From: a virus
IMG/VR virus record: IMGVR_UViG_3300024982_000051
Coordinates: 1-29,173 of that record
Reading direction: 5' to 3' (one strand)
DNA length: 29,173 bases
The number at the start of each line of letters is the position of its first letter. The stretch's first letter is position 1. Below the pieces are notes generated by a model. That model did not search any database. It worked only from the letters and a program-made list of their open reading frames with translations, and was not told the origin of the DNA. Below are positions 4,025 through 8,853 of the stretch, piece by piece. Made by a program: the position numbers and the translations under genes.

Positions 4025-4431
4025 TGACTGAATTAATCGATTTAAATGAATGTGCAAAAATACTAGGCATAAAAAGAAATACTTTGACTTTTGTAGTTAA
4101 TAAATTGGTTAATTTTCCAAAACCGATTGTAATGCCAAAAAGCAGGAAAAAAGCTTTTTATGATAAAGCAGAAATACAAAGATGGAATGAATTAAATGAC
4201 GGACAAAAACTGATAAAACAGGCCTTTAATATTATTTATAAAAATAAAAAAGCCAAGTCGGCTAAAGAAGCAAATGAAAAGGCATTGTTTGAAACCCGTC
4301 TTTGTAATTTATTTTTAAGCGGCATGTTTGATCCACTTGAAAAAAGATTGGAATATGAAACTAAAAAATATAACGCTTTACAGCGCCCTCGATTGACTAA
4401 AACCGTGCATTTAAAATCAGCTTGGCAATAA
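4024..4431 (+). CDS. Putative DNA-binding HTH protein, 135 aa
   Basis: Its ATG overlaps the endolysin stop codon (TAATG). The N-terminus reads ELIDLNECAKILGIKRNTLT, followed by FPKPIVMPKSRKKAFYDKAE and IQRW. This is the pattern of AlpA/excisionase-like or Nu1-like winged HTH proteins, in which a partner strand follows a 'FPKP' turn. The rest is lysine-rich and helical. It is visibly AT-rich compared with the genes to its right. A role as excisionase, given the integrase downstream, or as regulator is plausible. A terminase small subunit is less likely because the large subunit is not nearby. Confidence 0.55.
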   Translation: MTELIDLNECAKILGIKRNTLTFVVNKLVNFPKPIVMPKSRKKAFYDKAEIQRWNELNDGQKLIKQAFNIIYKNKKAKSAKEANEKALFETRLCNLFLSGMFDPLEKRLEYETKKYNALQRPRLTKTVHLKSAWQ

Positions 4432-4646
4432 TGAATCTATCACCCGCCATCGTAACATTAGATCAACTGAAAGCCGCTACCGGTTACGACAGCGCTGCAG
4501 GTGTAGAAAAATGCTTACGCAAAAACGGAGTAAAATTTTTATATGGGAAAGCTGGAATCTACACAACCATTGATGCATTGAATGCAGCAATGGGATTAAA
4601 AGCAGATAATCCTAAAAAAAATGAACAGGATATTGATATATTATGA
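4431..4646 (+). CDS. DUF4224-like phage protein, 71 aa
   Basis: The ATG overlaps the previous stop (TAATG). The protein (MNLSPAIVTLDQLKAATGYDSAAGVEKCLRKNG...) follows the DUF4224 pattern: 'LT.d.L..lTGY......ikwL..nGi....g..G'. To my knowledge such genes in other phages often sit directly before a tyrosine integrase. Here the integrase is 3.1 kb away, with the cassette-like block in between. Function is unknown; a recombination directionality or accessory role is only an inference from that linkage. Confidence 0.6.
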   Translation: MNLSPAIVTLDQLKAATGYDSAAGVEKCLRKNGVKFLYGKAGIYTTIDALNAAMGLKADNPKKNEQDIDIL

Positions 4647-4717
4647 AGCTGAACGATAATTTTATTAAAAAAAATTATGCTCGATATAACAACTGGAGAA
4701 TAAAAAATGATTTCTGA
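4643..4717 (+). CDS. Possible leader microprotein, 24 aa
   Basis: An ATG overlaps the preceding TGA stop (ATGA) and opens a 24-codon frame (MKLNDNFIKKNYARYNNWRI...). It ends 11 bases inside the next gene. It could be a translated spacer that couples the two neighbours rather than a functional protein. There is no independent support. Confidence 0.25.
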   Translation: MKLNDNFIKKNYARYNNWRIKNDF

Positions 4718-4922
4718 CGTACTGCACGAAGCCGTGGCCGAGATGGATAGATACCTCGACAGCCCGGAATGGCGCGACACATACACCGGCCAAACACGCA
4801 AGGAATTAAAGGCTCTACGCACTATGATAGACGCGACTAGGCAGCGGCTTGATCTACCGCCGGCACCGGATCACAATATTTCCATAACTGTGCGTAACGG
4901 TGTCGTTGTGGTGAGAGCATAA
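4707..4922 (+). CDS. Small phage protein, 71 aa
   Basis: The ATG at 4707 has GGAG 9 bases upstream. The product begins MISDVLHEAVAEMDRYLDSP, continues with charged helical sequence and ends in a beta-like ISITVRNGVVVVRA. No family is recognised. Its stop codon lies inside the left recombination-box-like sequence GCATAAT of the first attC-like site, as also seen for the next genes. It could be the first gene of the cassette-like block or the last phage gene before it. Confidence 0.55.
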   Translation: MISDVLHEAVAEMDRYLDSPEWRDTYTGQTRKELKALRTMIDATRQRLDLPPAPDHNISITVRNGVVVVRA

Positions 4923-5008
4923 TGTTGTGTTAAGCAGAAATCCGAGCACGGATATTCAATAAACAAACTAACTTATGACGGCTTGTTAGCTTGAATGCAT
5001 AGTTGCGC
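4917..5008 (-). repeat. attC-like site 0, degenerate
   Basis: The left box GCATAAT covers the stop codon of the previous gene; the right box is GTTGCGC at 5002-5008. TTAAGC (left arm) pairs with GCTTGAA (right arm), leaving one extra G in the right arm, as in the better sites nearby. The inner arms pair poorly, and a small ATCCG/CGGAT hairpin lies in the centre. The polarity, judged from the extra base, is minus. It is called mainly because its position and boxes match the other four. Confidence 0.4.
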
Positions 5009-5033
5009 CATGGTGGCGCGCAAAGGACAGACG

Positions 5034-5561
5034 ATGGAAGCAAAGACCTACACGACGACTGACCGCGCCGCCATTGGCTGGCCATCTGGACCATGGGATG
5101 GCGAGCCGGACAAAGAGCAGTGGCCCGACGAGGCCACAGGTTTGCCGTGCTTGGCGGTGCGCCACCCGATAAGCGGGCATTGGTGCGGATACGTTGGCGT
5201 GGCCGATGGGCCCCCGATGCACGGCAATGAATATGAAGACATTGATGTTGAAGTGCATTGGGGATTGACGTTTGCCAATAAGTGCCAGCCAGGCAAAGAC
5301 GAGTCGCGCGGCGTGTGCCACATCCCGGCGCCAGGCGAGCCCAACCATGTGTGGTGGCTGGGTTTTGACTGCGCAAACCGTGACGACTACTCGCCGCAAG
5401 ATGCCAAGTACGCAGCAGAGCGCGGCTACCCATTCACGCCGCTGCCTGACCAGGAATATCGGACGCTGGCCTATATGCGCCAACAGTGCGCAGCACTTTT
5501 GAAACGTAGCCGCGACGTGTGGCAACACTGGGTTGGAAACGGCCGGCTCGTAAGGGCTTAA
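5034..5561 (+). CDS. Conserved phage protein with WWLGFD core, 175 aa
   Basis: I chose the ATG at 5034, which follows AAAGGA at 7 bases; an in-frame ATG at 4995 falls in the attC-like site. The core contains GHWCGYVGV, HWGLTFAN, HVWWLGFDCAN and YRTLAYMRQQCAAL. I recall this arrangement from an unnamed protein family common in phages and plasmids ('GYVGVP...HGGLTFA...WWFGFDcAH...Y..l.YV...c..LA.Q'). Its function is unknown to me. The gene is clearly GC-rich, unlike the AT-rich gene at 4024-4431, which suggests separate acquisition. The stop codon lies in the GCTTAAC box of the next attC-like site. Confidence 0.65.
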   Translation: MEAKTYTTTDRAAIGWPSGPWDGEPDKEQWPDEATGLPCLAVRHPISGHWCGYVGVADGPPMHGNEYEDIDVEVHWGLTFANKCQPGKDESRGVCHIPAPGEPNHVWWLGFDCANRDDYSPQDAKYAAERGYPFTPLPDQEYRTLAYMRQQCAALLKRSRDVWQHWVGNGRLVRA

Positions 5562-5699
5562 CAGCGGACTTTTTGGAGAACGAAGATGACGACGAAACAC
5601 ACACCATGGCCTTGGCACACAGCCGCCGCCGATTGACGCACAGCCAGCGGCTAACACGCGCAGTACGGGCGGCTTTTCCGCTTGAACACATAGTTATAC
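5556..5699 (-). repeat. attC-like site 1, diverged
   Basis: The left box GCTTAAC contains the stop codon of the previous gene; read on the minus strand it is GTTAAGC, a perfect GTTRRRY box. The right box is GTTATAC (5693-5699). The right arm GGGCGGCTTTTCCGCTTGAA strongly resembles that of site 3 (GGGCGGCTTGTCCCGTTGA). Only AGCGGA/TCCGCT is clearly paired with the left arm, and the left spacer is missing. It is probably a decayed or rearranged site, and at 144 bp the longest of the five. Confidence 0.45.
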
Positions 5700-5716
5700 A
5701 ACATTTTGCATAGGCT

Positions 5717-6163
5717 ATGAATAAAGATTTAATGTTTTCAAGCGACACCGATTTATGGGCTACGCCACAAGAGTTTTTTGACAAGCTTAATATGGCTTTT
5801 AAATTTACCCTTGATGTATGCGCTTTGCCGGATAACGCAAAGTGTAGTCAATATTACACCCCCGACAAAAACGGGCTGCAACAGGAATGGAAAGGAACAT
5901 GCTGGATGAACCCCCCTTATGGGCGCGGCATAGCCGCATGGGTTGAAAAAGCCTATAAAAGCGCAAAGGAAAGCGGTTGTACTGTTGTTTGTCTGTTGCC
6001 AGCGAGAGTTGATACACGATGGTGGCATGACTACTGTGCAAATGGCGAGGTGCATTTTTTAAAAGGCCGGTTAAAGTTTGGCAATGCAACAAATAGCGCC
6101 CCATTCCCGAGCGCGGTTGTTGTTTTTAGGCCGACGGTGCGAGATGCGCTTAATGGCGTATAA
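5717..6163 (+). CDS. dam: Phage DNA N6-adenine methyltransferase (Dam family)
   Basis: This 148-residue protein belongs to the compact phage N-6-adenine-methyltransferase family (DNA_N-6-adenine_Mtfase). The family start (DLWATPQEFFDKL) and the catalytic NPPYGR motif (residues 65-70) are both visible. A SAM-site-like acidic stretch (FTLDVCALPDNAKC) lies between them. It methylates adenine in DNA, probably to protect phage DNA from restriction or to alter regulation. The length is normal. Its last codons, GTATAA, are part of the left box of attC-like site 2. It follows site 1 after 17 bp. Confidence 0.85.
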   Translation: MNKDLMFSSDTDLWATPQEFFDKLNMAFKFTLDVCALPDNAKCSQYYTPDKNGLQQEWKGTCWMNPPYGRGIAAWVEKAYKSAKESGCTVVCLLPARVDTRWWHDYCANGEVHFLKGRLKFGNATNSAPFPSAVVVFRPTVRDALNGV

Positions 6164-6256
6164 CGCCATGCTCAGGAGCGCAGTGCCGCGCGACTGAACA
6201 TAAATTTAACGAAAACCGTGACGCGGCACTGCGTCGCCTGGAGCTATAAGTTATGC
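6158..6256 (-). repeat. attC-like site 2
   Basis: The outer boxes are GTATAAC (6158-6164) and GTTATGC (6250-6256), with 5-base spacers GCCAT and TATAA. The arms include a perfect 12-bp stem (CGCAGTGCCGCG with its complement at 6222-6233). Outside it, GCTCAGG pairs with CCTGGAGC, leaving one unpaired G. A 31-base centre completes the classic integron attC architecture. The unpaired G on the plus-strand 3' arm means the canonical attC top strand is the minus strand, opposite to the genes. The right box supplies the start codon of the next gene and the arm GGAG its ribosome binding site. Confidence 0.75.
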
Positions 6257-6474
6257 GTAAACTACACGTTGCAGCCAGTCCTTTGACTGGTGATATTTTT
6301 GTCGGAACCGTGCTTAAGGACGGTAGGACATGGGGAATGGGCAAGCAGGATGTAACCATTGAAGCATTGGTTGCTGTTGCAGAACACGCGCTAAAATTTG
6401 GAAAGCCTGTGGAAATAAGCAAGGCGGACGGAACGCCAGAGTACCGCATTACTGTTGAGAAATTAGGTGTATAA
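6253..6474 (+). CDS. DUF7446-like phage protein, 73 aa
   Basis: The product (MRKLHVAASPLTGDIFVGTV..., then DGRTWGMGKQDVTIEALVAV) matches the pattern of a small phage family I know as DUF7446: 'lhv..SPLTg.If.G.vlk.g.tW...kqDVT.eal.Avaehvl....pv.i...dGtp.Y.i.v'. Function is unknown. It is complete. Its ATG is inside the right box GTTATGC of attC-like site 2 with GGAG upstream. Its final Val-stop (GTATAA) is inside the left box of site 3. The whole gene therefore fits one cassette unit. Confidence 0.75.
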   Translation: MRKLHVAASPLTGDIFVGTVLKDGRTWGMGKQDVTIEALVAVAEHALKFGKPVEISKADGTPEYRITVEKLGV

Positions 6475-6564
6475 CGCCATGCTAACGGGCAAGCCGCCCG
6501 CGCAAGACTGAAAAAATACGAAACGCTCAAAGGGCGGCTTGTCCCGTTGAGCTATTCGTTATGC
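6469..6564 (-). repeat. attC-like site 3
   Basis: This is the clearest site. The boxes are GTATAAC (6469-6475) and GTTATGC (6558-6564), with 5-base spacers. The left arm is GCTAACGGGCAAGCCGCCC (6481-6499); the right arm lies at 6532-6552. They pair fully except for two extra bases in the right arm, a T and a G. That is the number and kind of extrahelical bases that define attC strand choice in integrons. Their side shows minus-strand polarity. The first 15 bases, GTATAACGCCATGCT, are identical to site 2. Confidence 0.8.
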
Positions 6565-6583
6565 TGGATTTGCTGGAGACTGA

Positions 6584-7339
6584 ATGAAGCAGATAGTGAG
6601 TTACGGAGCAGGAACCAACAGCACCGCAATGGTAATCGATATGGTAAACCAAGGCGAACGAATTGACGCAATTGTGTTTTCTGACACCGGCGGCGAGAGG
6701 CCGGAAACATACCTGCATTTAGCGGATTTTAATGCGTGGCTAATTGCGCGAGGCTACCCATCCATTGAGACGGTAAAAGGCTGTGCAAAAATCGGCGACA
6801 ATGTGATTGTCGAGACACTGGAAGAAGAGTGCCTGTTGCGTAACCAACTGCCCGGAATAATTTACGGCCGCGGCTCGTGCAGCGACAAATGGAAAAAACA
6901 GCCTTTTAAGCGCTGGCTGAAAGAGAAAGGCTGGAAGAATGTAACCCAATTTATCGGGTTTGACGCAGGAGAGCCGTATCGAGCAGAGCGCGGCGATATG
7001 TTTGACGAGGGTTACAAAAAACGGTATTGGCTAATTGAGCGCGGATTATTTAGAAAGGACTGCGTTGACATAATCAAAGCCGCTGGCATTGAACCGCCCG
7101 GGAAAAGCGCCTGTTTTTTTTGCCCGAGCAGTAAAAAACATGAAATTTTGGAATTGGCGAAAAATAACCCGGAATTGATGCGTAGAGCATTAGCGATGGA
7201 GCAAAAAGCCTATTTAACATCCATAAAAGGGCTGGGGCGCAGTTGGTCTTGGAGAGAATTAGTTGAATACGACAGCGCACAAAATGACTTATTTGAAACA
7301 TTCGTGGGTATCCCGTGCGACTGCTGGGACGGGGCATAA
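6584..7339 (+). CDS. PAPS-reductase-like (PP-loop) protein, 251 aa
   Basis: The start MKQIVSYGAGTNSTAM is a PP-loop-like ATP-binding segment of the adenine nucleotide alpha-hydrolase superfamily. FSDTGGERPETYLHL is the second typical motif. A cysteine pair in KSACFFCPSSKK resembles the C-x2-C of phage 'phosphoadenosine phosphosulfate reductase' proteins and DndC-like enzymes. Such proteins activate or transfer sulfur or modify nucleic acid; the exact reaction here is not known. A role in DNA or tRNA modification fits a phage better than sulfate assimilation. GGAG stands 8 bases before the ATG. The stop codon lies within the left box GCATAAC of site 4. Confidence 0.75.
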   Translation: MKQIVSYGAGTNSTAMVIDMVNQGERIDAIVFSDTGGERPETYLHLADFNAWLIARGYPSIETVKGCAKIGDNVIVETLEEECLLRNQLPGIIYGRGSCSDKWKKQPFKRWLKEKGWKNVTQFIGFDAGEPYRAERGDMFDEGYKKRYWLIERGLFRKDCVDIIKAAGIEPPGKSACFFCPSSKKHEILELAKNNPELMRRALAMEQKAYLTSIKGLGRSWSWRELVEYDSAQNDLFETFVGIPCDCWDGA

Positions 7340-7456
7340 CGCAAAATTAACCAGCCCGCCGATAACCGAACTTAAACGAAGCGAGGAACTATGAACCAAA
7401 ACGAAACTACGAAACCGCCACAGATCGGCGGGTCTGTGTTGAATGTTGAGTTAGAC
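7334..7456 (-). repeat. attC-like site 4
   Basis: The boxes are GCATAAC (7334-7340) and GTTAGAC (7450-7456, a perfect GTTRRRY), with 5-base spacers GCAAA and GTTGA. The left arm ATTAACCAGCCCGCCGAT (7346-7363) pairs with the arm at 7424-7444 when three single bases of the right arm are left out. The central part is about 60 bases. The polarity is again minus. Unlike the other sites it overlaps the next gene: the first 22 codons of the DUF551 gene lie inside it. Confidence 0.7.
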
Positions 7457-7693
7457 GGCTGGATTGATGTAGAAAAAACACAGCCGCCATTAATACCGGG
7501 GCAGGACTATTCGGCTAATATTTGGGGCTGGGATGGGATGCATATATTGGTTGTCTCATTTTTCATCGATTCCGATGGCTGGCATTGGGCGAATGCTTAT
7601 GGTGATGTTTGGGGCGATGCTGAATTTGATGATGACTACGACATTAAATATTGGCAACCGATAGAAATACCGTTGCCGCCTAACGCGAAATAG
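7391..7693 (+). CDS. DUF551-like protein, 100 aa
   Basis: From residue 23 on the protein reads DGWIDVEKTQPPL...HILVVSFF.......WHWANAYG and ends DIKYWQPIEIPLPP. This is the DUF551 layout ('W i.v.e..P......vlv........V THWmPLPepP'), common in phages and of unknown function. GAGG stands 5 bases before the ATG at 7391. A GTG at 7436 would start just before the domain and remains possible. The N-terminal 22 residues are encoded by the attC-like site and are probably not part of the domain. Confidence 0.7.
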   Translation: MNQNETTKPPQIGGSVLNVELDGWIDVEKTQPPLIPGQDYSANIWGWDGMHILVVSFFIDSDGWHWANAYGDVWGDAEFDDDYDIKYWQPIEIPLPPNAK

Positions 7694-7737
7694 ACACCTT
7701 TTTATGTGTATATCCCTATTCACACACCTAATACAAA

Positions 7738-8853
7738 ATGAAAAAACCAGGACGTAAACGATCAAGCAAAAATATACCGGCGCATATTAACGCCGATAAA
7801 TTGCCTGATCGTGTTTGGTTTAATGCTTCCGGCGCAGGGAAATGGATGCTTAATTATTATGATGAACTCCACCAGCGCAAAACAAAACGCATCTGTGGAC
7901 CTGAAGCAAAACTGGCTGAAATCTGGCAAGCCGTCGAAGCACAGCAAGAAAAAACCATAACCACCTTCACCACGCTATCTTTAGAATTCCAGCAAACCCA
8001 TGCATGGAATAAGCTAAGTCTATCAACCCAAGCCGATTATAAAGGCTGCCATCATGCCATCGTAACCCGGCCAACCAGTACCGGAAAATTGGGTGATGTA
8101 CCCTTAAAACAATGGACAGTCGGACTTATCCGAAAATACCGGGACAAACGTGCAGAAGAATCCGAAAGCAGGGCTAATAAAGACCTAAGCTATATCAAAC
8201 GCGTTTTTAGTTGGGCTTACGAATACGAAAAAGTACCATCAAACCCAGCAACTGGCATAAAAAAAATAAGCATCCAGCCAAGACAGCACTACGCAGAAGA
8301 CCGCGATTATCACTATTTACTTAATATTGCCAAACAATCAGGCTATTGGTACGTTGCCTATGCTATGGAGCTGGCCTATCTATGCCGGATGCGAATGTGT
8401 GAAGTGCTCGATCTCACAGACGCCAACGAACTCGAAAAAGGTTTGATTATTTATCGCCGGAAAGGCAGCAAAACCAACATCACCGAATGGCAACCACGCT
8501 TACGTGCAATTTGGGACGAATTAAAATCAAAACGCAATGCAATACTGGCAGAACGCAAACAACCTCACCCCATCAGAGCAGATCAGCGGCACCTATTCAT
8601 CAGCGAGCGCACCGGTGATAAAATAGTGATCAGCTCACTAAAAACAGCCATGCAACGCATAAAATCAGAAGCCAAAGCGCAAGCTGAAAAAGATGGTATT
8701 GACTTCCATGACTTCACCTTTCATGATTTGAAAAGAAAAGGCATTTCTGACACCACGGCTAATGAAAGAAAAGCATCAGCCGGCCATCGATCAGAAGCTA
8801 TGATGAAAGTTTATGACGTAAAACCAGATATTGTTAAACCAACCAAAAATTAA
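7738..8853 (+). CDS. int: Phage tyrosine integrase
   Basis: This 371-residue site-specific recombinase probably acts on the tRNA-His attP just downstream. It has a basic N-terminal arm-binding part (about 1-60), a SAM-like core-binding part (about 75-165) and the catalytic domain. Visible catalytic residues are R219 (CRMRMCEVL), H329 (FHDLKRKGIS), H350 (AGHRS) and the nucleophile Y359 (MKVYD). The usual HxxR arginine is a lysine (K332). As I recall, this occurs in a phage subfamily with 'HDLKaKG'. It lacks the extra helix and motifs of integron IntI, so it should not process the attC-like sites. No clear SD precedes it. Confidence 0.9.
   Translation: MKKPGRKRSSKNIPAHINADKLPDRVWFNASGAGKWMLNYYDELHQRKTKRICGPEAKLAEIWQAVEAQQEKTITTFTTLSLEFQQTHAWNKLSLSTQADYKGCHHAIVTRPTSTGKLGDVPLKQWTVGLIRKYRDKRAEESESRANKDLSYIKRVFSWAYEYEKVPSNPATGIKKISIQPRQHYAEDRDYHYLLNIAKQSGYWYVAYAMELAYLCRMRMCEVLDLTDANELEKGLIIYRRKGSKTNITEWQPRLRAIWDELKSKRNAILAERKQPHPIRADQRHLFISERTGDKIVISSLKTAMQRIKSEAKAQAEKDGIDFHDFTFHDLKRKGISDTTANERKASAGHRSEAMMKVYDVKPDIVKPTKN

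Follow-up and report, generated by a model that had tools for sequence, protein, structure and literature searches.

In bacterial integrons, as they are known, the genes of the cassettes have the same direction as their attC sites, so that they can be expressed from a promoter at attI. Here we describe an array of attC sites and genes in a tailed-phage record of 29,173 bases (IMG/VR record IMGVR_UViG_3300024982_000051; "the window" below is this whole stretch). The array lies between the phage excisionase and integrase genes. It is in all likelihood a phage-borne integron platform without its own integron integrase gene, made up of a row of minus-oriented cassettes and an attI-like site beside the phage integrase gene (int). 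The cassette genes are on the plus strand and all three intact attC sites on the minus strand, contrary to the classical rule that the gene runs with attC. Dozens of other phage sequences show this inverted layout too, and some of them encode an integron integrase (IntI).

The specificity of IntI for the bottom strand of attC, and its structural basis, have been described (PMC8946536). Phage integrons and clusters of attC sites without integrase (CALINs) have already been published, for example from Tetrasphaera phage TJE1 and Vibrio anguillarum phage p16, and some phage attC sites recombine with IntI1 (Qi et al. 2023, PMC9892861). That paper describes the typical same-direction layout; antisense arrays are not described there. 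The phages studied here resemble those of Qi et al. in carrying attC clusters, some with IntI, and DNA methyltransferase cargo. Unlike in the window, however, the attC sites of TJE1 and p16 match our covariance model R1 (see below) on the same strand as the genes, that is, in sense orientation. The published phage P12002L gave zero R1 matches up to E=1. In the reverse integrons of Treponema, the integrase is flipped, the cassettes are sense to attC, and the cassette stop lies in R'' (PMC7691350). Our intI-bearing phages share with these that intI and the cassette genes have one direction, but in the phages it is the cassette genes, running toward attI, that are reversed with respect to attC. 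The antisense cassettes of the window thus place it outside the Treponema type. Sedentary chromosomal integrons of the probable host family are like the window in the sequence and structure of attC and in the attI sequence beside intI, but they have intI and their cassette genes are mostly sense to attC, whereas the window has antisense cassettes and no intI. Phage accessory ("moron") loci beside the integrase also hold variable genes between excisionase and integrase, as in the window and in loci L010 and L011; those of L010 and L011 have no attC or attI boundaries, unlike the window. Neither an antisense class of phage cassettes nor an inverted, attI-anchored architecture was reported in the open literature searched (most subscription papers and all preprints were outside its scope), and we provisionally regard this phage architecture as new.

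Rfam returned zero or only sub-threshold matches, so we built models from host sites. Covariance model R1 was made from 35 aligned attC sites of chromosomal integrons of the probable host family, with zero phage input. We also used a home-made scanner that combines a box score, spacers, and gapped arm pairing. Both methods placed three attC sites at the same coordinates (Table 1), exactly those to which an earlier note on this DNA had ascribed the full architecture. They are the only significant R1 matches in the window, all on the minus strand (next best, E=1.5), and each extends over the full model length as R''-spacer-L''...L'-spacer-R' with complementary arms and R boxes. The boxes are GTATAAC/GCATAAC..GTTATGC/GTTAGAC, the spacers are 5/5, and extra bases lie on the right arm only. 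The motif around the extrahelical bases (TCAA..GGA opposite TT-AA..GG) agrees with that of host integron sites. Scanner scores of the three sites (34.9-38.6) are the highest in the window, and the best score in ten dinucleotide shuffles of the window was 29.8. Chance hairpins were ruled out by these shuffles and by the R1 matches.

The uniform minus polarity, opposite to the plus-strand genes, also proved correct. With filters off, the three sites scored 43.5, 36.0, and 28.7 bits on the minus strand versus 13.0, 5.1, and 16.4 bits on the plus strand. A misread polarity, in which the sites would truly be plus-oriented attC sites with ordinary cassettes, draws on the near symmetry of the R boxes in the window (GTATAAC / GTTATGC), which means that the polarity call rests on the arms and spacers. 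However, the model that favors minus by a wide margin comes from host sites with sense genes, and the same code scores host arrays and the Vibrio phage array as sense. Moreover, attC in intI-bearing phages points away from intI in the classical way, with the genes pointing toward it. We therefore consider a misreading scarcely credible.

The earlier note had counted five attC sites and deemed two of them incomplete. These two are decayed attC sites, as judged by alignment to an intact attC of a related phage (L005:9271-9367). The region at 4915-5010 aligns with it end to end (score, 85.6; shuffles, 42.6, standard deviation 4.5), and that at 5550-5705 aligns chiefly in the right half (78.0; shuffles, 51.6, standard deviation 4.8). 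Neither is a significant R1 match.

A lone R box immediately ahead of int closes the array. The sole window match of a sequence model made from 19 host attI sites lies there, and this model matches more strongly where the arrays of L004 and L090 end. When a phage array-end representative was aligned with the region beside host intI, the best scores were 42-44, with shuffle maxima there of 24-26. Signal was absent at several other host loci, since attI of hosts is of more than one type. On visual comparison, the window and L090 look like one of these types and L004 like the other. No match to TIGR02249 (IntI) was found in the whole record, nor any IntI in the window or in L001-L007. The window thus has the makings of a CALIN, that is, at least two attC sites (here three) with intI absent nearby, as the earlier note had proposed. 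It is not only a CALIN, however, because an attI-like site homologous to those of hosts anchors the array beside the phage integrase gene. The array structure accordingly extends past position 7456, where the note had ended it, to 7678-7713. Of the parts of a complete integron, an attI next to the array is present on homology alone (E=4.2e-4) and the intI gene is absent.

To compare orientation across loci, viral contigs were collected by a pattern scan that fixes attC polarity and is blind to genes, which yielded at least 120 viral stretches. Viral and chromosomal loci were scored alike and deduplicated, at a scanner threshold that gave zero hits in 97 kb of shuffled viral sequence. Genes neighboring attC were antisense in 322 cases and sense in 28 on viral contigs, versus 16 antisense and 100 sense in chromosomal integrons. 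Counted per contig, 60 viral contigs were antisense, 9 sense, and 1 tied; among chromosomal contigs 25 were sense and none antisense, with 1 tie. Restriction to long, high-scoring genes gave antisense-to-sense ratios of 134:11 (viral) and 8:43 (chromosomal), two chromosomal contigs then being antisense. The earlier note had been right about the antisense array, and most attC-bearing viral contigs examined have this layout, some of them encoding IntI.

Full-length IntI above the cut-off was present in 5 of ~99 viral records checked, and intI in 92 of 201 host-family genomes. We also took a census of viral loci by IntI alignment, limited to the best 80 of 275; some contigs belong both to this set and to the neighbor-gene set. 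Of these loci 49 were scorable, 42 as antisense and 7 as sense, and 31 were without a scorable array. In the antisense intI-bearing loci, attC mostly points away from intI, the classical arrangement, and the genes point toward it. In four phage contigs (L220, L221, L222, and L224), many inverted cassettes in a row accompany intI, and a phage-type integrase gene directly follows intI; in L220 this phage-type gene runs in the opposite direction.

Start and stop signals also occur within attC. At 96 of 267 viral sites, versus 3 of 108 chromosomal ones, an antisense gene has its TAA exactly within R', and the stop of a sense gene falls in R'' at 6 of 267 viral versus 25 of 108 chromosomal sites. 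We scored a start where an ATG inside attC opened a frame of at least 30 codons past the site. Of 247 viral sites, 86 have such a start in the gene direction, and 48 of these also have a Shine-Dalgarno (SD)-like motif; in the opposite direction there are 14 of 248, one with SD. Among IntI-selected loci, the corresponding stops number 24 versus 3 of 121 and the starts 33 of 120 versus 13 of 121, so the start contrast is weaker there. At L004:7050-7855, in L139 and L068, and at other viral loci, recurrent N-terminal leaders encoded by the attC arm (for example APVERRV, PLERQV, PLELRVI, and LTDGLG) stand in frame on unrelated cassette proteins. One antisense gene of a host-family chromosomal integron (L199:1664-1989) has a frame that begins within attC, an SD-like motif, and the leader MNEDYGRAPVERRVI. 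A bacterium may here have taken up a cassette of the phage type; the phage-type leader of the gene would fit exchange between the phage and host cassette pools.

The earlier note had suggested looking in relatives for gain or loss of single cassettes, and there is one clear case. L090 has int at the same position and a six-attC row with antisense genes. Its Dam gene product is 91.8% identical in amino acids to that of the window gene at 5717-6163, and the neighboring genes differ, so that the Dam unit is common to two different rows. The two Dam cassettes share 84.6% nucleotide identity across window positions 5668-6167, and the match stops at TATAACGCC, four bases beyond the R' cut in both. 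Further, differing arrays are found in L004, L139, and L068. Across viral loci, 32 of 180 interior alignment ends lie at most 12 bases from an R' cut, where ~2% would be expected; this enrichment is supporting evidence only, because similarity from attC to attC adds to the count. In L005, the 5' end of the integrase gene occurs an additional time at 7320-7410, after the first array and ahead of the complete gene (start, 8001), and the intact attC used above is a second attC, beyond the integrase.

We propose that new cassettes enter at attI beside int, most likely moved by IntI acting in trans from the host or from another phage. In the gene direction, each unit consists of attC followed by an open reading frame (ORF), unlike ordinary cassettes. 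The stop codon is in the R' box (YYYTAAC, cut after TAA), and a start codon is often present in the R'' arm or the attC center. The row therefore has the reading direction of excisionase and integrase, with which it would be transcribed together; expression of the cassettes from the phage operon fits the orientation of their genes. We infer that recombination takes place, that IntI is provided in trans, that the row is co-transcribed, that start codons in attC are used, and that the phage benefits. More broadly, and with moderate confidence, we take these arrays to be a widespread class of phage integrons, with or without their own IntI. Their inverted cassettes (attC leader with start signals, ORF, stop in R') would be expressed from the phage operon and would allow phages to exchange counter-defense genes. 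This pool would be partly separate from the bacterial one because each kind of cassette is backward in the other's platform.

Two other accounts of the array were considered. It could be an ordinary CALIN that arose when part of a chromosomal integron of the host was brought into the phage by illegitimate recombination, and it would now be inert, decaying baggage. The window has no IntI, two of its five sites are decayed, and its attC sites resemble host sites, all of which would suit such an origin. Unlike in host arrays, however, the genes run against attC, and the cargo consists of phage-type genes. Related phages also carry different arrays at the same place with a single cassette in common, and the layout recurs alongside intI in other phages. 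We thus consider an ordinary CALIN unlikely. It is less probable still, indeed very doubtful, that the hairpins now serve expression only, as operon leaders or terminators that have lost recombination. Many viral attC sites do hold an ATG with an SD-like motif in the gene direction, but the boxes, spacers, and extrahelical bases are superfluous for expression and match attC sites of the functional type. An attI-like site is present as well, and cassettes vary between relatives. Terminators were set aside on site anatomy and cassette turnover.

Several points weigh against a phage-borne integron platform. The match to attI spans only 36 bases (E=4.2e-4), and the attI model does not report L003, although its array end looks alike by eye. 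With two of five sites decayed, the array may be partly inactive. L010 and L011 have other genes at the same spot without attC, and the spot therefore also accepts insertions by other routes. The orientation counts depend on a home-made caller for the strands of genes and on viral records among which there may be fragments of prophages or bacteria. Finally, the host of the window phage is assigned by inference from the relatives of its integrase.

Table 1. Features of the array and its flanks in the window.
Feature	Position	Strand	Evidence
Excisionase gene, left edge of array	4422-4646	+	phrog_1266 excisionase, E=1.1e-11
Small ORF, leftmost; last cassette or adjoining phage gene (uncertain)	4707-4922	+	phrog_29161, unknown function; decayed attC next
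Decayed attC	4917-5007	-	End-to-end alignment with intact attC L005:9271-9367
Cassette gene, unknown function; stop TAA in R'-like box GCTTAAC	4995-5561	+	phrog_2164, E=2e-24
Decayed attC, mainly right (R''-L'') half retained	5555-5699	-	Alignment to L005 attC
Cassette gene, Dam-type DNA adenine methyltransferase; stop TAA in R'	5717-6163	+	PF05869, E=1.5e-31
attC, full architecture	6158-6256	-	R1, E=1.1e-4
Cassette gene, DUF7446; ATG in R'' of 6158-6256, TAA in next R'	6253-6474	+	PF24233, E=2.1e-18
attC, full architecture	6469-6564	-	R1, E=4.3e-8
Cassette gene, PAPS-reductase-like, SspD-like; TAA in R'	6584-7339	+	phrog_424, E=1.8e-36; PADLOC SspD, E=1.3e-16
attC, full architecture; SD-like motif and ATG for next gene in center	7334-7456	-	R1, E=2.3e-6
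Cassette gene, start inside attC (MNQNETTKPPQIGGSVLNVEL...)	7391-7693	+	Open frame leaving attC 7334-7456
attI-like site, attI end of array	7678-7713	-	Sole window match of host attI model, E=4.2e-4
Phage tyrosine integrase, right flank; not integron integrase	7738-8853	+	phrog_1, phrog_14425

Cassettes of relatives encode N6/N4 methylases, an RNA ligase, and a helicase. Cassette cargo, including DNA-modification genes, is plausibly used against host defense. A PDB search with the PAPS-reductase-like protein found nothing. The product of the cassette gene at 7391-7693 is 62.5% identical in amino acids to that of L005:463-726(-), near which no attC was detected, and the likeness ends at the R' box of the cassette. 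The pattern looks as if an ordinary phage gene had been turned into a cassette.

The window also encodes a portal, head protease, tape measure, endolysin, and repressor. The nearest bacterial-genome relatives of its integrase are in metagenome assemblies of the Methylococcaceae type (e.g., Methylobacter and Crenothrix), and the host is therefore probably a methanotroph. The excisionase and integrase genes are separated by 3.1 kb, where the array sits; their counterparts abut in the relative L002, and in the relative L001 the stop of the first overlaps the start of the second. Elsewhere in the window, a perfect 18-base inverted repeat (ACCATCACGAAACCGGCT) occupies 2777-2794 and 2903-2920, its arms 108 bases apart.

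It can now be tested which IntI moves the cassettes, whether translation can begin at attC, and whether inversion places the recombining strand on the lagging-strand template, a placement that raises integron recombination (PMC8946536). If the class of phages with the reverse layout is as broad as we propose, it would amount to a second cassette pool, one used by phages. Such a pool would account for the exchange of single DNA-modification genes by phages, one after another, and it would suggest that orientation keeps the phage and bacterial pools apart.

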